Source: Candidatus Kapaibacterium sp. (GTDB taxonomy: Bacteria > Bacteroidota > Ignavibacteria > Kapaibacteriales > UBA4661). Taken from it: DNA of 56,804 bases. Below are positions 2,451 through 56,804 of this stretch, piece after piece. Under the pieces are notes generated by a model. That model saw only the letters and a program-made list of their open reading frames with translations. It was not told the DNA's origin and ran no database searches. The stretch lies in contig RDXM01000091.1 in the NCBI GenBank assembly GCA_004292595.1, forward strand, positions 1-56,804, given 5' to 3'. A program made the translations under genes and the position numbers. How positions within the stretch are numbered: the stretch's first letter is position 1; each line of letters starts with the position of its first letter.

Positions 2451-2526
2451 GTGGCACAGACATTCTTGTCTGTGTTCGTCGCCTAGAACCCTCACCAATA
2501 CTCACAGACAAGAATGTCTGTGCCAC
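2451..2526 (+). repeat. Module A palindromic element, copy 1
   Basis: A 76-bp element with long inverted arms beginning GTGGCACAGACATTCTTGTC and ending in its reverse complement, around a partly conserved ~28-bp spacer. Copies of identical length occur at 11944 (inverted), 20756 and 56742. This copy fills the gap between the amylase and TPR genes and ends 16 bp before the next start codon, so it may also terminate transcription. Confidence 0.9.
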
Positions 2527-2542
2527 TTATTATTTTTTTTGT

Positions 2543-3751
2543 ATGGTATTGAGCGAAATAACATTAGGCACTTCTGCCCGCGCCACAGGACGCATATTTA
2601 TTGGTCTTGTGGTCTTGCTCGTGCAATGGAGCTTTTTCGCACCCGCGCCCGCCGAAGCCCAGTGGGCGCTCATGCGCACCGATGCCGACCAAGCCGTGCG
2701 CATTGGCATTCGTCATATTTACAACCTAGAATTTGACAGCGCGACAGCGGAATTTCAAAAAGTAACGACCGCATATCCGCAGCATCCCGTTGGCTATTTT
2801 CTGGATGCAATGGTGGATTGGTGGGCAATCTACACCAACCAACGCGACAAAAGCCTTGATGAACGCTATCTGCACAAAATAGACCGCATCATTACGCTCT
2901 GCGACAGCATTTTGGGAAATAATCCCAATGACATCGTTGGGCTGTTTTTCAAGGGCGGAATTATCGGCTTTCGCGGGCGGTACTACGTTACGCGGGACAA
3001 CTGGCTGAAGGCTGCTCTCGACGGCAAAACGGCATTCGATATTGTCCAGCGCTGCCAGCAGCTTGCGCCCGGCAACCGAGATGTGATGCTGGGTACAGGC
3101 TTGTATCATTATTTTGTCGAAGCACTTCCAGAACGCTATCCCGCCGCAAAGCCCTTCGTGGCGATGCTCCCGCAAGGCGATAAGCAAATGGGGCTTGCCG
3201 AGCTGCGTTTGGCTTCGCAACAGGCGCGGTATGCGGCGACGGAGGCAAAAGTAGTGCTGTTGCAGGTGTATTTTGGTTTGGAAAAAAATTATGGCGAGGC
3301 ATTAAACGTCGCGCAGGACTTGCACACGAATTATCCCCGCAACCCAGTCTTTAAGGCGTATCTGGCGCGGAGCTACACCTATTTGGGGAACTACGAAAAG
3401 ATGGAGGAAATCTGGCGCGATGTGCTGACAAACTGCATGGATAAACGGCGCGGCTACGATAACATCATTGCCCGCGAAGCAATGTACTACATCGGCTATT
3501 CCCTGAAACAACGCGGCAAGTACGACCTCGCGCTTCAATACTTTTACAAATGCGATGAGTTCTGCCGCAAACTCGACCCCAAGCCCTCAAGCTGGATGTG
3601 CTTGTTGAATAATCACATCGGGAACATATACGACGCGCAAGGCAAACGGGACCTTGCGTTGAAGCAATATCAAAAAGTGCTGTCATGGGACGATGTTTTT
3701 GAAACGCATCGCTACGCACGTCAGTTTATGCAGCGTCCATATGGGCAGTAA
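2543..3751 (+). CDS. Exported tetratricopeptide-repeat protein
   Basis: A 402-aa protein with an N-terminal hydrophobic segment and a likely signal peptide cleavage near PAPAEAQ. The rest is alpha-helical with degenerate TPR-like repeats, clearest at the C-terminal third (pairs of helices around YLGNYEKMEEIW, RGKYDLALQYFYKCDEF and QGKRDLALKQYQKVL). Such proteins usually act as periplasmic scaffolds for protein interactions. The start ATG lies just after module A, so its promoter must be inside or before that palindrome, or it is read through from the amylase. No enzymatic motif is visible and the partner is unknown. Three AT-rich copies of a TGCAGTAA motif follow the gene end (about 3735-3785). 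Confidence 0.75.
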   Translation: MVLSEITLGTSARATGRIFIGLVVLLVQWSFFAPAPAEAQWALMRTDADQAVRIGIRHIYNLEFDSATAEFQKVTTAYPQHPVGYFLDAMVDWWAIYTNQRDKSLDERYLHKIDRIITLCDSILGNNPNDIVGLFFKGGIIGFRGRYYVTRDNWLKAALDGKTAFDIVQRCQQLAPGNRDVMLGTGLYHYFVEALPERYPAAKPFVAMLPQGDKQMGLAELRLASQQARYAATEAKVVLLQVYFGLEKNYGEALNVAQDLHTNYPRNPVFKAYLARSYTYLGNYEKMEEIWRDVLTNCMDKRRGYDNIIAREAMYYIGYSLKQRGKYDLALQYFYKCDEFCRKLDPKPSSWMCLLNNHIGNIYDAQGKRDLALKQYQKVLSWDDVFETHRYARQFMQRPYGQ

Positions 3752-6715: not shown

Positions 6716-8029
6716 CTATCGTGTTGTTTCTCGAATCCGCTCAATGAGCCGTTTTATTGAACTTTCGTGAATTTCCAATACGTCGGAGGCAAGCAGCACG
6801 ACGGCAAGCATCAAACCCGTTTGGAAGCTGTAATTGATGAGATAAAAAGAGTACATCGCGCCGAGCGTAATCATGCCAGATTGAATTAACTGGATAAGTT
6901 TCATCTCGCCGCCAGCGAAGCTGGGAAAACGAGCAGTTATCCAGTGGAAGAGTGCCATGTTGAAATAACAAATGATAACGGCAATCGCAAATTCCATCCA
7001 TTCTGGCATTTTCTCAATCATTTGGTCGTGAATGAGCATGGAAATCGTATTTGCTTGAATCACGCCCGTGTACATATCGGGCGCACTTTTGCCGATAAAC
7101 ACCTTCGCGGCTGGCGTGTAGAGTTTTCCACGAATGTCGTTAGGATTGTCGAAGGGCTGCCCCATGTAGGTAAGAATCACGATTTTATCACGCACAAGGC
7201 TTCCATACATCGAAACAGCAGAATCTATCGGCATTCCAGGCTCAATGTCAAGCATCACAAATTTATTGTAATTGCCCTTGAAATTGATAATCTCCGTTTC
7301 ATTTTCTCGTTCCTTTACTCGTTTTGCAATACCTGGCTTATACCGCTCGGCAACTTCTAAAGCGAAAGAGTTAAGCGTAGTATCTTTGTACGGAACAGTA
7401 AGCTCTACAAGGCGAATCGTTTGAAGGGAGCGGTTTTCCTCGTCGGGAATGAAGGCATCGTGTCCGAAGGAAACATTCGGCAAACGGAATTTTTCATGCG
7501 GCATCCGAAGTTCGGTGTATTGCGGTTTGGAAGTGTCTTTCACAAAGCCGCTTATTTTCGAGGTGAGAACTACATTTTTTGTTGAGGATAATGCCTCCAT
7601 AAGTGGTAAATCCATATCCGCCTCCTTTTCCGAAGCAAACAGCACATCCACCGCTACCACTTTCGGCTGCATTGCCGATAAAACCTTTATTTGATATGCA
7701 ATTTCTGCACGATTCCGCCCAATGTTCACGAGCGCAATGTCTTGATCCACAGGAAAGTCTTCGCTGTGTGAGCCAAACTCCACATCCTTGAACTCAAAAT
7801 CACTCAGCGCATACTTGATAGGGTCAAAAATTTCAATATTTCCAGGCGAAAAGACAATCAGCGCAATCAATCCAAAAATGGAAAGCGTTGAAAAGAAGTT
7901 TTGTGAATTGAACACGTAATCCCGCAGAAAGCCGCGCCGGGGCTTGGGCGGCGGCGGTACGTGAATACGACGAACCGTTTTAGCAACTTCGCGCATTGCC
8001 TCGCGGCGCATTTTCCATGTTAAAGCCAT
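6716..8029 (-). CDS. CHASE2-domain membrane protein without an output domain
   Basis: A 437-aa inner-membrane protein. The ATG at 8029 is chosen because GAGGGAG lies 9 nt upstream; an upstream TTG at 8047 lacks this. After a basic, proline-containing cytoplasmic N-terminus and one membrane segment (FSTLSIFGLIALIVF) comes an extracytoplasmic CHASE2-type sensor domain (rough residues 75-335: VNIGRNRAEIAYQI, KVVAVDVLF, FGHDAFIPDEENRSLQ, FIGKSAPDMYTGVIQANTI). Three membrane segments then follow and the protein ends in a short basic helix. CHASE2 proteins normally carry a kinase, cyclase or GGDEF output; here there is none, so signalling must go through a partner. The likely operon partner is the DUF5829-like gene 50 bp downstream. 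Confidence 0.82.
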   Translation of the reverse strand: MALTWKMRREAMREVAKTVRRIHVPPPPKPRRGFLRDYVFNSQNFFSTLSIFGLIALIVFSPGNIEIFDPIKYALSDFEFKDVEFGSHSEDFPVDQDIALVNIGRNRAEIAYQIKVLSAMQPKVVAVDVLFASEKEADMDLPLMEALSSTKNVVLTSKISGFVKDTSKPQYTELRMPHEKFRLPNVSFGHDAFIPDEENRSLQTIRLVELTVPYKDTTLNSFALEVAERYKPGIAKRVKERENETEIINFKGNYNKFVMLDIEPGMPIDSAVSMYGSLVRDKIVILTYMGQPFDNPNDIRGKLYTPAAKVFIGKSAPDMYTGVIQANTISMLIHDQMIEKMPEWMEFAIAVIICYFNMALFHWITARFPSFAGGEMKLIQLIQSGMITLGAMYSFYLINYSFQTGLMLAVVLLASDVLEIHESSIKRLIERIRETTR

Positions 8030-10248: not shown

Positions 10249-10914
10249 ATGCCCAAACCTCCTTCGCTCACACAAGCAACAAAGCGGCTTGGCGAGATTC
10301 TAACTCGCTTACAAAAAGACTACCCAAATCCTCGCATCGCGCTTGATTACTCATCGCCGTTTGAATTGCTCATTGCCACGATGCTTTCCGCGCAATGCAC
10401 CGACGAGCGCGTGAACAAGGTAACGGCAAAGCTCTTTGTGAAATATCGCTCGGCGCAGGATTACATAAAAGTGCCGCAAGAAGAGCTTGAGCAAGATATT
10501 TTTTCGACGGGATTTTACAAAGCAAAAGCAAAAAATATTCAAGCGTGCTGCGCGAAATTACTTGCAGATTTTCAGGGTGAAGTGCCACGAACACTAGATG
10601 AATTAACGTCGCTCGCGGGCGTGGGACGCAAAACGGCAAATGTCGTTCTCTCGCATTGCTTCGATACGCCCGGCGTGGTTGTTGATACGCACGTTACGCG
10701 CCTTGTCAATCGCTTGGGGCTGTGCGACGGCACAGATGCGGTGCAGCTTGAGTTTGAGTTGATGAAGCTCATGCCCAGCACCGAATGGCGCGATTTCACG
10801 CATTTGATGATTTCGCACGGACGCGCCATCTGCACCGCACGAACACGCCCTTTTTGCGATAGATGCTCGCTTGAAGACCTTTGCGTCAAGAATTTTTCCA
10901 GCGCGAAGAAGTAA
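10249..10914 (+). CDS. nth: Endonuclease III
   Basis: Base-excision repair DNA glycosylase/AP lyase removing oxidised pyrimidines. From the ATG at 10249 the protein is 221 aa, a normal length. It has the helix-hairpin-helix LAGVGRKTANVVL with the catalytic Lys, the catalytic Asp in VVDTHVTRL, and a C-terminal [4Fe-4S] cysteine set. The cysteine spacing reads C-X7-C-X2-C-X5-C (CTARTRPFC DRC SLEDLC) where the classical enzyme has C-X6-C-X2-C-X5-C, a one-residue insertion in the cluster loop. Upstream in-frame codons are open to 10114 but the protein family starts near MPKPPS. accD follows 41 bp downstream on the same strand. Confidence 0.95.
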   Translation: MPKPPSLTQATKRLGEILTRLQKDYPNPRIALDYSSPFELLIATMLSAQCTDERVNKVTAKLFVKYRSAQDYIKVPQEELEQDIFSTGFYKAKAKNIQACCAKLLADFQGEVPRTLDELTSLAGVGRKTANVVLSHCFDTPGVVVDTHVTRLVNRLGLCDGTDAVQLEFELMKLMPSTEWRDFTHLMISHGRAICTARTRPFCDRCSLEDLCVKNFSSAKK

Positions 10915-10955
10915 GATTGACATACTTAAATTTCCCTCACTTTTTATTTTTCATC

Positions 10956-11801
10956 ATGGCTTGGTTCTTTCGTCCCAAAACAGCACTCTCGGAGCGTTCG
11001 CAAGTAACAACCAATATGCCCGACGGCTTATGGACAAAATGCGATAAATGCGCGGAGATTATTTACAAAAAGCAACTCGAAGAAATGTTGTACACCTGCC
11101 CGAAATGCTCGAATCATTTCCGCATTTCCACGCAAGAATACATCAGCATTCTCTTCGATGACCACAGTTTTGTCGAAACACACCAAAATGTGCGCTCCAC
11201 CGACCCCTTGGGCTTTGTTGATACCAAGCCCTACACTAGGCGTTTAGAAGAGGCATATGCAAAATCGCCCTTTCCCGACGCGCTCACCACAGGCTATGGC
11301 ACAATCGAAGGGCGTAAAATCTCGTTTTCGAGCATGAATTTTGGTTTTGTGGGTGGGAGCATGGGTTCGGTCGTGGGCGAAAAATTTGCCCGCGCAGCCA
11401 ATCTTTCGCTGCAAGAGCGCATTCCCTTTATCAACATCTCCGCTTCTGGCGGCGCACGAATGCAGGAAGCCGCGCTCTCGCTCATGCAAATGGCAAAAAC
11501 GAGCGCAAAACTTGCGCAGCTCTCGGAGGCTGGAATCCCGTACATTTCTATTCTCACCGACCCCACCACAGGCGGCGTGAGCGCGTCTTTTGCGATGCTG
11601 GGCGATGTGAACATTGCCGAACCAGGCGCACTGATTGGCTTTGCTGGTCCGCGTGTGATTGAGCAAACGATTCGCAAAAAATTACCCGACGGCTTCCAAA
11701 GCTCCGAGTTCGTTCTCGAACACGGGTTCTTGGATTTAATTGTTCACCGCAAGGAAATGAAGCAAACATTAGCGCGGGTTTTGGGCTTATTGTGCGATTA
11801 A
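10956..11801 (+). CDS. accD: Acetyl-CoA carboxylase carboxyltransferase subunit beta
   Basis: Beta half of the carboxyltransferase that makes malonyl-CoA for fatty acid synthesis, acting with AccA in the cytoplasm. From the ATG at 10956 the protein is 281 aa, the usual size. The N-terminal zinc ribbon C-X2-C...C-X2-C (WTKCDKC and YTCPKCSNHF) is complete, and the crotonase-fold core has INISASGGARMQEA, the SILTDPTTGGVSASFAMLGD segment and the GFAGPRVIEQT signature. It probably forms a short operon with nth (41-bp gap). The accA gene is not in the window. Confidence 0.97.
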   Translation: MAWFFRPKTALSERSQVTTNMPDGLWTKCDKCAEIIYKKQLEEMLYTCPKCSNHFRISTQEYISILFDDHSFVETHQNVRSTDPLGFVDTKPYTRRLEEAYAKSPFPDALTTGYGTIEGRKISFSSMNFGFVGGSMGSVVGEKFARAANLSLQERIPFINISASGGARMQEAALSLMQMAKTSAKLAQLSEAGIPYISILTDPTTGGVSASFAMLGDVNIAEPGALIGFAGPRVIEQTIRKKLPDGFQSSEFVLEHGFLDLIVHRKEMKQTLARVLGLLCD

Positions 11802-11804
11802 GAC

Positions 11805-11908
11805 TATCCTAAAAAAGGTTTGTGGCTTCAGATGTAGTCCACCTCAAAGGTGGACTACATCTCATTCTTTCGCTTTTTAATATGCAATTTTTACCCGCTT
11901 TTAGTATA
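11805..11908 (+). mobile_element. Module B MITE-like element, complete copy 1 (104 bp)
   Basis: Runs from TATCCTAAAAAAGG to CTTTTAGTATA and matches, in opposite orientation, the element at 56024-56125 with only a few differences and a 2-bp indel, while the flanking sequences are unrelated; this fixes the boundaries. The ends are inverted repeats of the type TATACTAAAA, and the outermost TA could be a target duplication. It contains the 33-bp module B palindrome (11830-11862). No coding capacity. Confidence 0.75.
11830..11862. repeat. Module B palindrome, copy 1
   Basis: Perfect 15-bp arms AGATGTAGTCCACCT and its complement around a CAA loop. Other copies are at 35439-35471, 38904-38936 and 56068-56100. 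Here it lies 28 bp after the accD stop and could also work as a terminator. Confidence 0.92.
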
Positions 11909-11914
11909 TCCTTC

Positions 11915-12066
11915 CTTTGTACACGACAAAAAATTCTTCAATAGTGGCACAGACACTCTTGTCTGTGAGTATTGGTGCGGGTCTCAGGTGACGAACACAG
12001 ACAAGAATGTCTGTGCCACCGAAACCAGATTTTATACGCTGTCCAGAGGTTTTGTCGTGTACAAAG
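11915..12066. mobile_element. 152-bp element with terminal inverted repeats and 9-bp direct repeats, carrying module A
   Basis: Perfect 17-bp terminal inverted repeats, CTTTGTACACGACAAAA at 11915-11931 and its complement at 12050-12066, are flanked on both sides by the direct repeat ATATCCTTC (11906-11914 and 12067-12075). This is the signature of transposition with a 9-bp target duplication. The interior is module A copy 2. There is no reading frame for a transposase, so mobility would need an enzyme supplied from elsewhere. The left direct repeat overlaps the end of the module B element by 3 bp. Confidence 0.8.
11944..12019 (-). repeat. Module A palindromic element, copy 2 (inverted)
   Basis: The same 76 bp as at 2451 but in the opposite orientation, as shown by the spacer (AGTATTGGTG...GACGAACACAG matches the reverse complement of copy 1). 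One arm has a C for T change. It sits inside the 152-bp element. Confidence 0.92.
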
Positions 12067-12092
12067 ATATCCTTCACTGCTTTCGTTTCATC

Positions 12093-12180: not shown

Positions 12181-14685
12181 ATGATATTATTGTTGTTGTT
12201 ATTGAGTACGACCAGTTTCTTTCGATATGTTCGACACGTTCGATATTCCCTCCAAAGCGCATCATTACTTGTTCTGATGCTCCTCGCATCGTCGTTTCTT
12301 GCAGCGCAAACCTCTTTGCCAACAGCACCGAAAGCCGCCGTACAAGCATTGCCCACAACACAAGCAAACGTCACGCTTGCAAGCACTTCTCTTCTGAAGA
12401 GTAGCACGATTGCCAGCACCTCTGGCGCGTCGCTCCGTGCGCTCATGGCAGAAAAAACCGCGCTGGCGAGCCTTGCAACGCTCAAAGTGCCGCTCTACAC
12501 GCCGCTCGCAGCGCATGGACGCTTGTTTCTGAACGCTACACACGCATTTATCACGATTGGCAAGCAGGATATTCCGTGGCTGGATTACAACGGTTTTGCG
12601 GAAATTCTTGCCGCGAAAACGCCGATGTTTCCGCTCTTTTTGGGTTCGCAGGGCGCATTCAATCACGGTTCGTTTTTTGGAAGTTCGGTGCGCGATATTG
12701 CCGTCATGGTCAATGGTCGCCCCACGAATGATATTGCGCTGGGTGCGGCGCATTTGGAGCATCTGCCACCAGAAATGATGGAACAAGCGGAAATTTACAT
12801 CGGTTCGGATGCCGTGATTTTGGCGAATAATGCTTCGGGAGCCGCAATAAACCTTCAGGAAATACGCCACAACGTGAAGGATTTTTACACGCGAGCGTGG
12901 ATTAGCCAATCCAACGAGCAATACACAGCCGCCGATGTGGACTTTAGCCACAACGTCGCACCAAACCTCAATTTCACGCTGGGAGCGCGGACGCAATTCG
13001 GCAGCCGCATTTACAACAACACAGGCATTTCATCGTGGAACGCCCGCGCAAAGCTGCATTGGAGCGTGTCGTCGTCGGCAAATGTGTCGCTAAGTTATTT
13101 GCTGACGCAGCACCGAAGCGCTCTGAGCGGCGGTGTTACCTCAGGCAGTGGCTTTGATTTCAACACCAGCGCGACCGTTTTTAATGAGCTTCGGGAAAAC
13201 ACCTTCCGGCACGACCTCACGCTGACCGCCAGTGCCTATCTTTCCCGCGATTCCGCCATAGCAGCCAGTCTGACGGGCTATGCCAGCCTGAACGAGCGCA
13301 GTCTTGAACGGGCTTTGCGGCAAGGAACGGGCTTAAACGGACAGAGAAGCAGTAGCTCTGGTGTGCGCCCCGATACGCTCATGGCAGAATCCACAACGAA
13401 TACCTTCACGGTGGGCGTTACAGGGCGCATAGAAACACGGGTGAGGCTCTTCAACGCGCTGGATGCCGCACTTACGGCGGGCGGGAGCATCAATGCCTCG
13501 AATGTACAAACAAGTGTGTATTGGGACGAGAGCTTGCGCCGTGCAGCGTGGCAGCAAAGCGATTCGTTGCAGGCGGAAGGTCCGATATCACCAGACCTTA
13601 TCATCATTCCTCGCACCCGCGATACCGTCTCTGGTGAAATTGCAGGTTTTGGGCGATTGCAATTCACTCTCTTCGACCGCGTAAACACCAGTGGTGGAGC
13701 GCGGTTCACGCTTTTGAATGGCAGAACATACCTCGCCGTTGGAGCGCGTTTTTCGACATTGTTGCTTGACGAACACAGGACTAGCACAACGGGAACGTTT
13801 GGCACAACGCTCGAACTTTGGGGCGATTTTTCCCGGAGTTCCCGCGCACCAATGCTTTCCGAGCAAGGTATGAATGTTGCAGCCGTAGCACGCTTCTCAA
13901 CAGTAGCCACGATGAGGCTTCCAGAGCTTCAGCCCGAAGTACATACGCTCATTCTTAGTGGGCTTCGCCTTCGTCAGCAAACGGCAAAGAGTGCTTTTTC
14001 GTGTGATGTTACGGCAGCCTTGCGCACTATTCAGAATGAAATCCGCGCTACGCCTGTCTTTCAAGAATTTCCGCATTTTACGATAAATCGCTCAACGCCG
14101 AAGAATCCTATTGTGGTCAATAGCAGATATAGGAAAAATGACCCTTTGCTTGAAGCAGCCAATCGCCTCCCTACGATGCAAACCTCGAACGACACGAGCA
14201 GTTACGCGCTTCTCAGCGCATCGCTCATGGCGGATTGGTACGTGCAGAATGTTCTTTTTGGTGGAAATTTCGTATTTTCTGGCTATGCAAATTGTACGGT
14301 GCCATTTTCCAGAATATCGCAAAACCTCACACAGCTTGTGCCAGAGCGGTTTCCGCTTGTTTCGGCGGGATGTACCGCGCAGTACGAGTACGTTGTGGGG
14401 CGAAGTGTTCTCAGAGCAGGTATCCGCGTCCGCATGATGACGACGGTGCAAACACAAGGTTTTATGCCAACGACGTGGACGTATTTTGACAACGATTTTA
14501 CCACCAATCCCATACAAGGGCTGACGGGAAACGGCATAGATATTGTCGCGGCGGCACGTGTGGGCAATGCGTACCTGCGTGCAACGTACCAAAACGCGCT
14601 CAGTGTTCCTGCGATGACAGTGGGCTTTTATCCGCAATATCCAGCAAATATCAGGCTTTCAGGCTCGTTTACCATTTTAGAGTAA
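12181..14685 (+). CDS. TonB-dependent-receptor-like outer membrane beta-barrel protein
   Basis: An 834-aa protein with a hydrophobic N-terminus (signal peptide ending near ASSFLAAQ). A plug-like domain at about residues 95-225 contains the typical pattern of a 'variable, named' loop followed by SVRDIAVMVNGRPTND and MEQAEIYIGSDAVILANNASGAAIN. The remainder consists of alternating polar/hydrophobic strands (barrel) ending in RLSGSFTILE. Such proteins import large ligands across the outer membrane using TonB, or serve as plugged porins. It lacks the carboxypeptidase-like N-terminal domain of SusC and has no SusD neighbour. No TonB box could be pointed to with confidence. The start could be 12181 or one of the Met codons just downstream (for instance MLLASS). 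The ligand is unknown. Confidence 0.75.
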   Translation: MILLLLLLSTTSFFRYVRHVRYSLQSASLLVLMLLASSFLAAQTSLPTAPKAAVQALPTTQANVTLASTSLLKSSTIASTSGASLRALMAEKTALASLATLKVPLYTPLAAHGRLFLNATHAFITIGKQDIPWLDYNGFAEILAAKTPMFPLFLGSQGAFNHGSFFGSSVRDIAVMVNGRPTNDIALGAAHLEHLPPEMMEQAEIYIGSDAVILANNASGAAINLQEIRHNVKDFYTRAWISQSNEQYTAADVDFSHNVAPNLNFTLGARTQFGSRIYNNTGISSWNARAKLHWSVSSSANVSLSYLLTQHRSALSGGVTSGSGFDFNTSATVFNELRENTFRHDLTLTASAYLSRDSAIAASLTGYASLNERSLERALRQGTGLNGQRSSSSGVRPDTLMAESTTNTFTVGVTGRIETRVRLFNALDAALTAGGSINASNVQTSVYWDESLRRAAWQQSDSLQAEGPISPDLIIIPRTRDTVSGEIAGFGRLQFTLFDRVNTSGGARFTLLNGRTYLAVGARFSTLLLDEHRTSTTGTFGTTLELWGDFSRSSRAPMLSEQGMNVAAVARFSTVATMRLPELQPEVHTLILSGLRLRQQTAKSAFSCDVTAALRTIQNEIRATPVFQEFPHFTINRSTPKNPIVVNSRYRKNDPLLEAANRLPTMQTSNDTSSYALLSASLMADWYVQNVLFGGNFVFSGYANCTVPFSRISQNLTQLVPERFPLVSAGCTAQYEYVVGRSVLRAGIRVRMMTTVQTQGFMPTTWTYFDNDFTTNPIQGLTGNGIDIVAAARVGNAYLRATYQNALSVPAMTVGFYPQYPANIRLSGSFTILE

Positions 14686-14998
14686 ACTGGCAACTGGCAA
14701 CGCTGACCTTACCAAGTGTGCATGAAAATATTTTTTGTATTCTGCGAAGTTTCGTATATTGCGCCTTCTACAAACAGCAATATGGGCGGTGCTTCTGAAC
14801 ACGAAAGCCGCACATCACCTTCTCCTCCACTGCAAACGCCTACGCTAACGCTCCACACGCTACCTCCGTTTCGTTCCGATATTTTTGTGTTCTCTTCGGG
14901 TAATCTTTATCTTACCGAGAAAGATTCTGCCTCGAAGAATTTCTCCCTAAATCGCTGTGTTGTCTCACTTTCTCTTTTTTGGAATGCACCAAAAACGC
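14686..14998. other. Spacer upstream of porU
   Basis: About 310 bp with no supported gene. A TATTTTTG box at 14880-14887 matches the Bacteroidota -7 element, but no TTG lies at the right distance upstream, so the promoter assignment is weak. A 102-codon frame across this stretch has random-looking composition. Confidence 0.4.
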
Positions 14999-17900
14999 AT
15001 GAACATGATTGCCCCGCGCAATGATGCACGGAGTTACGTCCGACAGAATTTTCTTCCTTTTCTGCCTTCCCTTCGGCTTCACTGCTGGAGGATTGCCCTT
15101 GTGTGCGCACTGCTTCTGCCCGTACCAGCTTCCACGCACACACTTTTTGCACAAGCTCCATCGGCACAACCAGCAAAAACATCTGTACAAAAAAGCAATG
15201 TAAATAGCACATACACTGGCGATGGCTTGCCGCAAGGCGTGAAAATACTGGAATCTTCACAAGCACGGCTTGTGGTGGAATACACTCCGACCTTGCTTGG
15301 CTTTGATACTATCAGGGTGCAAGGGCGCATCACGCTTCAACCACGCATTGCGGGCGCAGCCGTTATCGGCGACGAAGCAGGAAGCCCCGTGCGCTTGCAG
15401 ATTCAACTGCCCGTTGCTGTTCCCGCGCCAAATGGTTTCCGCGTGAGCGAGCAATCGGTGCGCAGTGTGCAATCCATTGAAAATCTCATCTCGCCGCGCA
15501 GAACCGTGAACATTCGTCGTGGTGAAGAAGATAGCTCGCCGTACAGCATCAACGAGGCTGCCTACCGCACAGCAGCTTTGCCCGCGTGGGTGGAGATGAA
15601 ATATGCTGGTATCGGACGAGATGCCTACATTGCGCATCTTTCCTTGCGTTCAGCCCGTTTTAATGCCGAGCGCGGCACGATTGAACTTCCCCAAAAAATG
15701 CGCGTGGTGATTGAGTTTAATGCTCTTGAATTTGATGCCCCGCAAAACGCACAAGTCCTTACGAATGAAAGAATTACGCCTACAACACTCTCATTACCGA
15801 ATAGCCAGAACAGCGATATAACACAAACTATCAACGACGGCGCACGAAATCTGTGGCGTATGCAAAAAGCAAGCAATACTGCGGCTTCTGGCGAAATATT
15901 ACTCACGCCCGACCACATTGCCACACCGCCCGTTACACCGCCACAAACGCCCGCGCAATCCTCTGGAAAGCAGACCACAACTGCCTTTTCCGCCGAAGGA
16001 CGCTGGCTCAGAATCGGCGTGGAGCGCGAGGGAATGTACCGCGTAACGGCGCAACAACTCCGCGAAGCTGGCATCACGATAACGGCGCAGGAAGCAGCTT
16101 CCGTCAGGCTCTTCGGTAATGGTGGCGAAGAATTGCCAGAACTTGTTGCGGCAGCAGACAGCAATCGCATGAACGAGCAGCCAATTTTCGTCGAAACCGA
16201 TGCAAGCGGCACTGTTACTGGGCTGGTGTTCTATGGTGCTGCACCGAATGGATTCGCGCTGAAGGACGGCATTATCCAGCACTACGTCAATACCTTTTCG
16301 CGGCGCAATTTCTACTTGCTCAACGTCGGTGCGCCTGTGCGCGGGCTTCGAGCGGCACTGAACGATTCGCCTTCGCCGCTTGCTTTCGCGCCTTCGCACT
16401 ACACCGCACGTGTTTTCCGCGATGATGATAAATTCAATCCATTTGATGCTTCGGGCGACGGCTCAGGGCGGCGGTGGTTTGGCGATCGCTTGTCGTCAGG
16501 CTCGACGCTGCGCTACGAAACGCCCATGCCGAACCTTGTTACCAATGCCGAGCCTATCAGCTACCGTGCGGCGGCGGCATGGAACAATGCTCTCGGCTCT
16601 GGTCGAGGCGGACAAATTTTTATCAAAGAATCTGGACGCGATATTTTGCCAACACCGCTGAGTTTAGTTGGCGCAGAATATCTCTACGATGTGGGCGAAG
16701 TCCGCACCGTTGCTGCAACACTGCCCGCAACAGCTATTCGCAATAATCGGAGCAGTTTAGAGTTTCTCTACTCCAGCAATTCCAGCAGTGGCGATAATTA
16801 CGGCGCAGTTGATTGGTACGAAATTCACTATCCGCGCAATTTTGTTGCGCTTGATAACCAGCTTGATTTTTTTGCCGAACCCTTCAACGGACGCTTCGGC
16901 GTAGCGGAATACAACGTGAGCGGCTTCACGAGCAGCGACCAAATTTACATCGTGGATGCCACAGTGCGCTCACGTCCGCGTTTTCTGCGCAATCTTTCCA
17001 CCGTGCGCCAAAGCGCACAGTTTCGTGCGACTGTCGCAGCAGACAGCTTACCGCCGCGCTTTTTCTTGACCACGCAGATTCTTTCGCCCGCATCGTTTGA
17101 ATTAACCGAATTGGCGAATTTACGCGACACCGCGCTTGGTGCGGAATTGATTGTGATTACCGACAAAGACCTCAAAACCTCCGCCGATGCCTATCGCACC
17201 TATCGCCAATCAACGGGCATGAATACGCGCGTCGTGACGACCGAGCAGATTTACAACGAGTTCAATGGCGGCACACCCGACCCAACCGCGATTCGTGATT
17301 TTCTCGCCTACGCGCTCCGCCGTTGGAAAACCCAAGCTCCGCGCTACGCCTTGTTCTGGGGCGATGGACACTTCGATTATCGCGGGCTTGACCCGACCAA
17401 CAAACCGAAGAATTTTGTGCCAACCTATCAAATCTACGACCCCGATGGCTACATGAACTCGGTGAATACGAACTATATGACCGAAGATTATTTCGTGCAG
17501 CTTGTCGGACAAGATGCCGTCGTGGATATGGTGCTGGGACGCTTGTGTATTCGCTCCAATGCCGAAGGAAACGTGATGCTGTCAAAGATTCGTCAATACG
17601 AAAGCACGGCTTCGTCGGATAATTGGCGCACACAAATTACGATGGTCGCCGACGACGGACCAACAACGAGCATCAGCGCGACCGACCGCAATTTGCACAC
17701 AAGTCAGTCGGAAACCCTCGCAATGGCACTCGTTCCGCCCGATATGCGTACGAGAAAACTTTATATGCCCGATTATCCGACCGAGAATGTTCCGGGTGGT
17801 CGTCGTCGTCCTGCCGTTACGGAAGATTTGATTGCCGCCATCAACGAAGGCTCAGTCGTATTGAACTGGGTAGGGCATGGCAACCCGCGTCTGTGGGCGA

Positions 17901-19366
17901 ATGAGCAGATTTTCTTGAAAGACATCCACATTCCGCGCTTTACGAATTCTGACCGTTTATTTTTTCTCGTGGCTGCAACCTGCGATTTTGCTCGCTTCGA
18001 TAATCTCCGCGAGCAGTCTGGCGCGGAAGAAATGGTTTCTTGCCCGCATGGTGGCGCGATTGGTACGTTTGCCGCCTCGCGCACCGTCTATTCGCTGGAT
18101 AATGCCAATATCAGCCAAGCCTTGTTCGAGCAAATCTTTCGCAACACCAACGGTTTCGCGCCGCCGCGTATTGGCGAAGCATTTTTCCGCGTAAAGCAGC
18201 AATTTAACGCAGGGTCGTTCCAAAATGACCTCAAGTTTTGCTTGCTCGGCGACCCAACCGTGCGCCTTGCCTTGCCGTCGCAGAGCGTGGTGATTGACAA
18301 ATTGAACGGCGCGAATTTGCTGGATAATACCACGCCCGCGCCACAAATCAAGGCACTTTCGACCGTTAATCTTTCGGGCTTTATTGCCGCGCCCGGCAGC
18401 ACAACGCAAGCAGACGTGAGCTTTAGCGGCAATATGCTGTGTAATCTCTACGATACCGACGTACAAAAAGCGGCGGTGGACGTGGACGTAGAGCGCACCA
18501 TTCATAGATTTACTGCGCTTGGCGGATTGCTCAATGTTGGCTCGGCAACCGTACAAAATGGACGCTTTTCCATCAGTTTCACTGTGCCGAAAGATATTAG
18601 TTTTTCTAATGCCAACGGACGAATGTTTTTCTACGGCGTAAGCAGCGACAATAAAAAGTTTGGACGCGGCATGGTTTCTCGCTTCACGCTGGGCGATGTG
18701 GACGAAACCGCCGTGAACGACGGACGCGGTCCAGAGATTCGTATCTTCTTAGATACACGCTCCTTCCGCGCTGGCGACCTCGTGGATTCTATGCCGCGCC
18801 TTATTGCTGATTTGTACGACGAAACAGGCATCAATGCTTCTGGCGCGGGCATCGGGCATGATATTCAATGCTGGATTGACGACAACCCAATTCCAATAAA
18901 TCTGACGCGCAGTTTCCGCGTTTCGCTCTCCGACCCGCGTCGGGGCGAGGTCAATCGCGTATTGCCGAAACTTGCGTCGGGACAGCATCGCATCAGGGTT
19001 CGTGCGTGGGATGTGTTTAATAATTTTTCCGAATCGGAAACCTACTTCCGCGTCGAAGGCGCGAGTGGCTTGATTTTGACCGACGTGCTGAATTTTCCGA
19101 ATCCGTTTGCTGCGTCCACCACGATTCGCTTTCGGCATAATCAACTCACCGAGCAGCCGTATTCGGTCGTCATTGCGAATATCTCTGGCGCACGAGTGCG
19201 CACCTTTCAAGGCACCACCACCGCTCGCACAATGGAAATCCCGTGGGACGGACGCGACGACAACGGCACAGCCGTAAGTTTTGGCACATATTTGTATCGT
19301 ATTTCTCTTACGGGCGCGAGCGGCGAAACCAAGACGGCAAGCGGCTTGATGATGTTTGCGCGGTAA
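14999..19366 (+). CDS. porU: Type IX secretion sortase PorU (gingipain-type C25 peptidase)
   Basis: Cell-surface sortase of the type IX secretion system; in the characterised system it removes the C-terminal signal domain of secreted cargo and attaches the cargo to the surface. From the ATG at 14999 the protein is 1455 aa; starts at 14984 or 15005 are equally possible as no ribosome binding site decides. A signal peptide ends near HTLFAQ. The C25 peptidase domain lies at about residues 700-1080 and shows the catalytic His (H791 in GDGHFDYRG) and Cys (C995 in AATCDFARF). The last ~90 residues form a FlgD-like/CTD-like Ig domain beginning FPNPF and ending SGLMMFAR. Followed after 55 bp by porV, the usual partner, which strengthens the call. 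Confidence 0.92.
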   Translation: MNMIAPRNDARSYVRQNFLPFLPSLRLHCWRIALVCALLLPVPASTHTLFAQAPSAQPAKTSVQKSNVNSTYTGDGLPQGVKILESSQARLVVEYTPTLLGFDTIRVQGRITLQPRIAGAAVIGDEAGSPVRLQIQLPVAVPAPNGFRVSEQSVRSVQSIENLISPRRTVNIRRGEEDSSPYSINEAAYRTAALPAWVEMKYAGIGRDAYIAHLSLRSARFNAERGTIELPQKMRVVIEFNALEFDAPQNAQVLTNERITPTTLSLPNSQNSDITQTINDGARNLWRMQKASNTAASGEILLTPDHIATPPVTPPQTPAQSSGKQTTTAFSAEGRWLRIGVEREGMYRVTAQQLREAGITITAQEAASVRLFGNGGEELPELVAAADSNRMNEQPIFVETDASGTVTGLVFYGAAPNGFALKDGIIQHYVNTFSRRNFYLLNVGAPVRGLRAALNDSPSPLAFAPSHYTARVFRDDDKFNPFDASGDGSGRRWFGDRLSSGSTLRYETPMPNLVTNAEPISYRAAAAWNNALGSGRGGQIFIKESGRDILPTPLSLVGAEYLYDVGEVRTVAATLPATAIRNNRSSLEFLYSSNSSSGDNYGAVDWYEIHYPRNFVALDNQLDFFAEPFNGRFGVAEYNVSGFTSSDQIYIVDATVRSRPRFLRNLSTVRQSAQFRATVAADSLPPRFFLTTQILSPASFELTELANLRDTALGAELIVITDKDLKTSADAYRTYRQSTGMNTRVVTTEQIYNEFNGGTPDPTAIRDFLAYALRRWKTQAPRYALFWGDGHFDYRGLDPTNKPKNFVPTYQIYDPDGYMNSVNTNYMTEDYFVQLVGQDAVVDMVLGRLCIRSNAEGNVMLSKIRQYESTASSDNWRTQITMVADDGPTTSISATDRNLHTSQSETLAMALVPPDMRTRKLYMPDYPTENVPGGRRRPAVTEDLIAAINEGSVVLNWVGHGNPRLWANEQIFLKDIHIPRFTNSDRLFFLVAATCDFARFDNLREQSGAEEMVSCPHGGAIGTFAASRTVYSLDNANISQALFEQIFRNTNGFAPPRIGEAFFRVKQQFNAGSFQNDLKFCLLGDPTVRLALPSQSVVIDKLNGANLLDNTTPAPQIKALSTVNLSGFIAAPGSTTQADVSFSGNMLCNLYDTDVQKAAVDVDVERTIHRFTALGGLLNVGSATVQNGRFSISFTVPKDISFSNANGRMFFYGVSSDNKKFGRGMVSRFTLGDVDETAVNDGRGPEIRIFLDTRSFRAGDLVDSMPRLIADLYDETGINASGAGIGHDIQCWIDDNPIPINLTRSFRVSLSDPRRGEVNRVLPKLASGQHRIRVRAWDVFNNFSESETYFRVEGASGLILTDVLNFPNPFAASTTIRFRHNQLTEQPYSVVIANISGARVRTFQGTTTARTMEIPWDGRDDNGTAVSFGTYLYRISLTGASGETKTASGLMMFAR

Positions 19367-20697: not shown

Positions 20698-20755
20698 GTA
20701 TTTTTCTTCATCAGCTCGCAACAAAATCTCTGCTAGAGCAGAAAATCAGGCTTCA

Positions 20756-20831
20756 GTGGCACAGACATTCTTGTCTGTGTTTTCCGTCTGCATCCAGCAC
20801 TGACATTCACAGACAGGAATGTCTGTGCCAC
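20756..20831 (+). repeat. Module A palindromic element, copy 3
   Basis: 76 bp, same orientation as copy 1 and also preceded by GGCTTCA as in copy 1, but with a diverged spacer (TTTTCCGTCTGCATCC) and one changed base in the right arm. ATCAGG occurs on both sides (left from 20745, right from 20833), a possible but weak trace of target duplication. It lies between porV and the SLBB gene. Confidence 0.9.
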
Positions 20832-56741: not shown

Positions 56742-56804
56742 GTGGCACAGACATTCTTGTCTGTGTTTGTCGCTTGAAACCCGCACTAACACTCACAGAC
56801 AAGA
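56742..56804 (+). repeat. Module A palindromic element, copy 4, cut by the window end
   Basis: 63 bp of the 76-bp element, same orientation as copy 1, with the spacer TTTGTCGCTTGAAACCC closely related to copy 1. The last 13 bases lie outside the window. It is upstream of the dioxygenase gene. Confidence 0.9.

Follow-up and report, generated by a model that had tools for sequence, protein, structure and literature searches.

REPINs are defined as inverted doublets of a REP sequence, the same REP flanking a RAYT gene (PMC3116915). Members of the IS4 family of insertion sequences duplicate about 7–13 bp of their target, the IS10 subgroup being characterised by 5'-CT ends, 9-bp duplications and a length of 1200–1350 bp (PMC2266710). 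The locus described here brings together features of both. It is found in a window of 56,804 nucleotides (the whole stretch of DNA that was analysed) from Candidatus Kapaibacterium sp., contig RDXM01000091.1, in which a preliminary description had pointed out a 152-bp transposon-like element with an internal palindrome, named module A.

Structure and setting of the 152-bp element

The element is located between accD, the gene of the acetyl-CoA carboxylase beta subunit (10881–11801), and the gene of a TonB-receptor plug domain protein (12181–14685). When the sequence was rechecked, the perfect 17-bp inverted ends, the perfect 9-bp direct repeats and the internal 76-bp palindrome were all found as first described. 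The ends, CTTTGTACACGACAAAA (11915–11931) and TTTTGTCGTGTACAAAG (12050–12066), are complementary at 17 of 17 positions, and immediately outside both of them lies the perfect 9-bp direct repeat ATATCCTTC (11906–11914 and 12067–12075). The inner arms (11944–11967 and 11996–12019) are complementary at 23 of 24 positions, with a spacer of 28 nt. Folded as single-stranded DNA, the element reaches −38.4 kcal/mol, compared with −16.7 ± 2.65 kcal/mol for shuffles (z-score −8.2). With its length of 152 bp, perfect 17-bp ends and no coding capacity, it is within the size range of MITEs (about 70–400 bp). The features of the window are as follows.

11906–11914, plus strand: left target duplication ATATCCTTC, from the sequence; 9-bp duplications are found at many other copies too
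11915–12066, minus strand (the orientation of the family alignment): 152-bp element, read as a MITE with REPIN cargo
11915–11931, plus strand: 17-bp terminal inverted repeat CTTTGTACACGACAAAA; complete IS4-family elements have ends of this kind
11944–12019, no strand: 76-bp REP doublet (REPIN; module A), from its paired inverted arms
11944–11967, plus strand: REP arm GTGGCACAGACACTCTTGTCTGTG, differing at one base from the common arm, which flanks the RAYT gene
11996–12019, minus strand: REP arm, GTGGCACAGACATTCTTGTCTGTG on the minus strand, by sequence comparison
12050–12066, minus strand: right copy of the 17-bp terminal inverted repeat, from complementarity to the left end and matches in the genome
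12067–12075, plus strand: right target duplication ATATCCTTC, from the sequence
2451–2553, plus strand: related copy, REP doublet (2451–2526) and second-type right end (2537–2553), by sequence comparison
20709–20831, plus strand: related copy, left subterminal flank (score 21.5) and REP doublet, ends eroded
56742–56765, plus strand: REP arm of a further copy, interrupted by the contig end, from arm matches

At 20756–20831, left subterminal sequence belonging to this element is still recognisable beside the doublet, its score of 21.5 comparing with a maximum of 14 among 1500 random sites. Next to the doublet at 2451–2526 lies a right end that represents a second type and reads CTCAATACCATACAAAA on the minus strand. 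Two neighbouring features are separate from the element: right behind accD, a perfect 15-bp stem with a 3-base loop (11830–11862) resembles a terminator, and a large C25-family peptidase with a propeptide and a C-terminal Ig-like domain, encoded at 14957–19366, resembles the type IX secretion sortase PorU.

A MITE family with 9-bp target duplications

Allowing up to two mismatches, the 17-bp end was matched 63 times in the 4.6-Mb genome, compared with a single match for the reversed control pattern, so that, taken together with the z-score of the fold, neither the ends nor the fold can be attributed to chance. The majority of the matches pair at one fixed spacing, and the extracted loci of this genome and its relatives yielded 80 distinct paired elements, 64 of which are 151 or 152 bp long. 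A recognisable REP arm is present in 79 of the 80, and no REPIN-less version of this MITE was seen among them. The lone element without the arm (L043:474–592, 119 bp) has the same kind of ends, a perfect 9-bp duplication and a different palindrome, ACAAGGGGTTGCAAGCCCTTGT; an end related to its own was observed near a contig start (L042:300–501), adjoining an apparent IS630-type reading frame.

In other copies the same core is enclosed by a second end sequence, CTNAGTACCATACAAAA, some of these copies also having perfect 9-bp duplications. When the insertions of both end types were compared with their flanks, 20 of 37 distinct insertions in this genome and 30 of 36 in the sister genome G005 turned out to have 9-bp duplications with no more than one mismatch, with a leaning towards G or C at position 1 and C at position 9. 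The preliminary description had regarded the locus as the footprint of transposition with a 9-bp duplication, and had proposed a search of the genome for the 17-bp end and for full-length copies; both the duplications, present at dozens of copies, and the counts of ends and of 151–152-bp elements given above bear this out. The outcome that it had named as speaking against transposition, namely no further ends and no empty site, did not arise, since there are dozens of copies and one empty site.

IS4-family insertion sequences with the same ends

In two related genomes, complete insertion sequences are bounded by the same ends, one of 1196 bp in G009, a genome of the same family as that of the window (C152:1768–2963, with the duplication AAAATTTAT), and one of 1179 bp in G005, which belongs to the same genus (C14:80601–81779, with the duplication GGTACAGAC). 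Each of them contains one transposase gene, and the 9-bp duplication found at both falls inside the range of the IS4 family. The transposases score 212 bits (G009) and 203 bits (G005) against the NCBIfam IS4-family model NF033591, the cut-off of which is 152. The Y-2-R-3-E-6-K signature is exact in the G005 transposase, while that of G009 has 11 residues between E and K, i.e. five extra. Related elements of Bacteroidales and cyanobacteria have the ends CTNAGTACANGACAAAA.

In the genome of the window itself, contigs C19 and C191 end in 126-bp pieces of such an element, encoding the last 41 transposase residues. No complete copy is present in this assembly, which is presumably what a fragmented assembly would show for a repeated element. 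The subterminal sequence of the MITE has no similarity above that of shuffles to the complete IS4-family elements, only the terminal 17 bp being common to them, and the MITE is therefore not a simple deletion derivative of either complete element. Three other candidates were rejected: the IS4-type PF01609 proteins of the genome as parents, their genes not being flanked by these ends; an end near a PF01609-type gene (L077, position 2657), which is part of a separate contig-end fragment; and an 823-bp end pair in L009 with an unrelated gene inside and a poor second end.

It had been proposed at the outset that the element has no transposase of its own and that either the palindrome is captured cargo or the ends belong to a separate family. 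The suggested search for a transposase gene with the same ends was successful, revealing the complete elements of the two related genomes and the two partial copies of the own genome, and both of the proposed alternatives hold, the ends being of the IS4 kind and the palindrome being a REP doublet.

Empty and shared sites in a sister species

The flanks of 15 insertions were joined with a single copy of the duplication, 12 of these were searched in the sister species G005, and the matches were re-aligned to the exact joined-flank sequences. For the insertion at C96:37903–38054 of the genome of the window (G000), G005 has an empty site containing one copy of GCTTCGTCC, the alignment running unbroken over 251 columns with 89% identity. 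The insertion at C93:38729–38879 occupies the identical position in G005, where the duplication is again CCGTACAAC and the element differs at one place. Some insertions must therefore be older than the divergence of these species, and others not. At three further loci an empty site was considered and dismissed: at L028 the insertion is missing in G005, where the target has changed as well, at L011 the alignment across the junction reaches only 72%, and at L170 other sequence occupies the site in G005.

An empty site, as proposed for the accD locus of a relative, was thus found in a sister species for another copy, that of C96; the two genes beside the window's 152-bp element, accD and that of the receptor, stand apart in G005, and none of the other species gave an alignment across the region between them.

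As a separate observation, five of the 36 insertions in G005 (L109, L114, L116, L118 and L124), including a complete insertion sequence, are inside REP-like palindromes. In G000 this holds for none of 37 insertions and for 22 of 4000 random sites. Insertion in G005 may favour REPs, the random-site control having been taken from G000 and not from G005.

The REP doublet and the RAYT-like gene

The genome has 580 arms close to GTGGCACAGACATTCTTGTCTGTG. In a sample of 850 kb, 39 doublets and 49 single arms were found, about three fifths of the arms being in inverted doublets, and extrapolation gives a total of roughly 200 doublets for the genome. There are only two matches to Y1-type tyrosine transposases in the genome. 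A full-length RAYT-like gene on contig C139 has the common arm GTGGCACAGACATTCTTGTCTGTG on its flanks, in inverted copies without a mismatch at 6992, 7494 and 7551; its protein reaches 74.9 bits against the NCBIfam model REP_Tyr_transpos (cut-off 80) and has a Pfam Y1_Tnp match above the cut-off. Since the palindrome is an inverted REP doublet and the same REP flanks the RAYT-like gene, it fits the definition of a REPIN (PMC3116915). A literature search with the REP sequence found nothing.

The REP-flanked RAYT-like gene (C139:6992–7574 of G000; L072, L284) lies in frame inside recG, an open frame of more than 1000 codons running through RecG, RAYT and REP-encoded peptides (VAQTFLSVN). An extra small palindrome, CTGAGGGATTCCCTCAG-like, was observed inside the REP stem at L009:1570–1600, L163:1600–1640 and L174:1400–1440.

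Relationship between doublets and MITE flanks

The 39 doublets of the sample (about 850 kb of large contigs and the window) have MITE flanks on both sides in 15 cases, on one side in 12 and on neither side in 12, with thresholds that 1% of random sites pass per side; since most of the contigs entered the sample by way of one or more intact ends, the proportion with flanks comes out somewhat too high. Another sample was drawn from listed doublets instead of ends: of its 38 doublets, 23 have a flank on one or both sides and 15 have none. Judged from these sequence comparisons, most REPINs of the genome sit in MITEs of varying preservation, including the window copies at 20756 and 2451. The earlier statement that the other occurrences of module A lack these ends is only partly right, as 27 of the 39 doublets, these two copies among them, keep eroded or variant MITE flanks on at least one side.

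Four of the flankless doublets (L263:16202, L276:17755, L277:19188 and L139:16498) have in common the flank AAATAAGTG...GTCAGTA on one side and a GAAGTTTATCCATTTAATT-like flank on the other, which is possibly a third end type. The TA beside flankless doublets was set aside as a target duplication because it also extends the palindrome.

The flankless doublets can be understood in two ways. They may stem from free REPINs still spreading by means of RAYT, next to a MITE family that a REPIN once entered, the MITE then accounting only for the copies with ends. REP-arm matches without MITE flanks are also common in the sister species G001, G006 and G007, as would be expected of such a second population. 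On the other hand, a MITE flank is present on at least one side of 27 of the 39 doublets, a REPIN-less version of the same MITE was not seen, and the flankless doublets may be fully eroded or have ends that were not recognised. The existence of two populations is a serious possibility, if somewhat short of an even chance, and is compatible with the origin proposed below for the element of the window.

The preservation of arms and ends was compared in copies anchored on the left subterminal sequence, which avoids choosing the copies by their arms. Of the 42 anchored places, 33 proved to be real copies. In 23 of these the first arm has no mismatch and in 31 it has one at most, compared with only 9 in which the left end comes that close; the size of this effect is uncertain, as some ends counted as decayed may belong to further end types and as four variants of the arm were accepted. 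That the arms outlast the ends could be explained by selection, by gene conversion among the hundreds of arms or by RAYT activity.

Proposed origin of the element

The 152-bp element is very probably a MITE that carries a REPIN and that relies, in all likelihood, on an IS4-family transposase acting in trans. The sequences show a family of constant length with 9-bp duplications, one empty and one shared site in a sister species, the same ends on complete insertion sequences and a common hairpin arm identical to the REPs around the RAYT gene. Such a transposase, supplied from another place in the genome, would excise the MITE and insert it at a new site, presumably by cut-and-paste, duplicating 9 bp of the target, and RAYT may be able to act on the hairpin. 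The whole unit of 151–152 bp has multiplied as one piece, and the REPIN has thus spread at least partly as a passenger of the MITE.

A function for the host, for instance as a hairpin for the end of transcription or for RNA stability downstream of accD, would suit the position between accD and the receptor gene, the folding far better than that of shuffles and the intact hairpin arms in copies with eroded ends; however, no terminator-like site was called within the 152-bp element, the element has no match in Rfam, the strong stem-loop at 11830–11862 is already present behind accD, and the element is one among many dispersed copies, so that such a function is quite improbable. Movement of an extended REPIN by RAYT alone, with the outer inverted repeats incidental, is scarcely credible: although the common arm is identical to the REPs around the RAYT gene, the 580 arms far exceed the 63 intact ends and 12 of the 39 sampled doublets have no MITE flank, this explanation is largely refuted by the 9-bp duplications right outside the 17-bp ends and by the parent elements of the IS4 family having the same ends, and the IS200/IS605-type tyrosine transposases, the relatives of RAYT, are not known to duplicate their target.

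Beyond the origin of the single element as an IS4-type MITE with a REPIN inside, it is suggested tentatively, as something that is perhaps not the case, that the REPIN population switched its means of spread: at least two IS4-type ends (CTNNGTACACGACAAAA, CTNAGTACCATACAAAA) would have come to enclose one core, moved mainly by DDE transposases in trans, the arms being kept intact by a separate process after the decay of the ends.

REPINs are usually explained by RAYT, whose action on REPINs is hard to observe. A DDE-type family with the same hairpin, 9-bp footprints and lineage-specific insertions makes two spreading systems separable in one genome, and, if the REP arms do persist past the decay of the ends, the genus would offer a test of selection against gene conversion and RAYT activity.

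Comparison with known systems

With the IS4 family the element and its relatives have in common the 5'-CT ends, the 9-bp duplication and, in the complete elements, a DDE transposase scoring above the curated cut-off. They differ in that the element of the window has no transposase and in that the complete elements, at 1179–1196 bp, are just below the 1200–1350 bp of IS10. By their features, the ends and the duplication appear nearest to the IS10 subgroup as tabulated in PMC2266710.

The likeness to REPINs and the REP-RAYT system (PMC3116915, PMC2817692, PMC3733652) consists in the hairpin doublet, the hundreds of arms per genome and the REP beside a RAYT gene, whereas most of the doublets sampled here are inside IS4-type MITEs and the REP begins with GTGG and not with GTAG, the tetranucleotide named in PMC3733652. 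In the part of the literature that was covered, no account of a REPIN carried by a DDE-type MITE was found.

BrickBuilt of Porphyromonas gingivalis (PMC4596501) is likewise a short, non-coding, multicopy MITE with IS-type ends, repetitive cargo and empty sites in relatives; its cargo, however, is a minisatellite, its ends are of the IS5 type and its duplications are variable, in contrast to the REP doublet, the IS4-type ends and the 9-bp duplications found here. The components of the present element are thus all of known kinds, and what is new is their fixed combination, the large share of the REPIN population that is involved and the presence of two end types.
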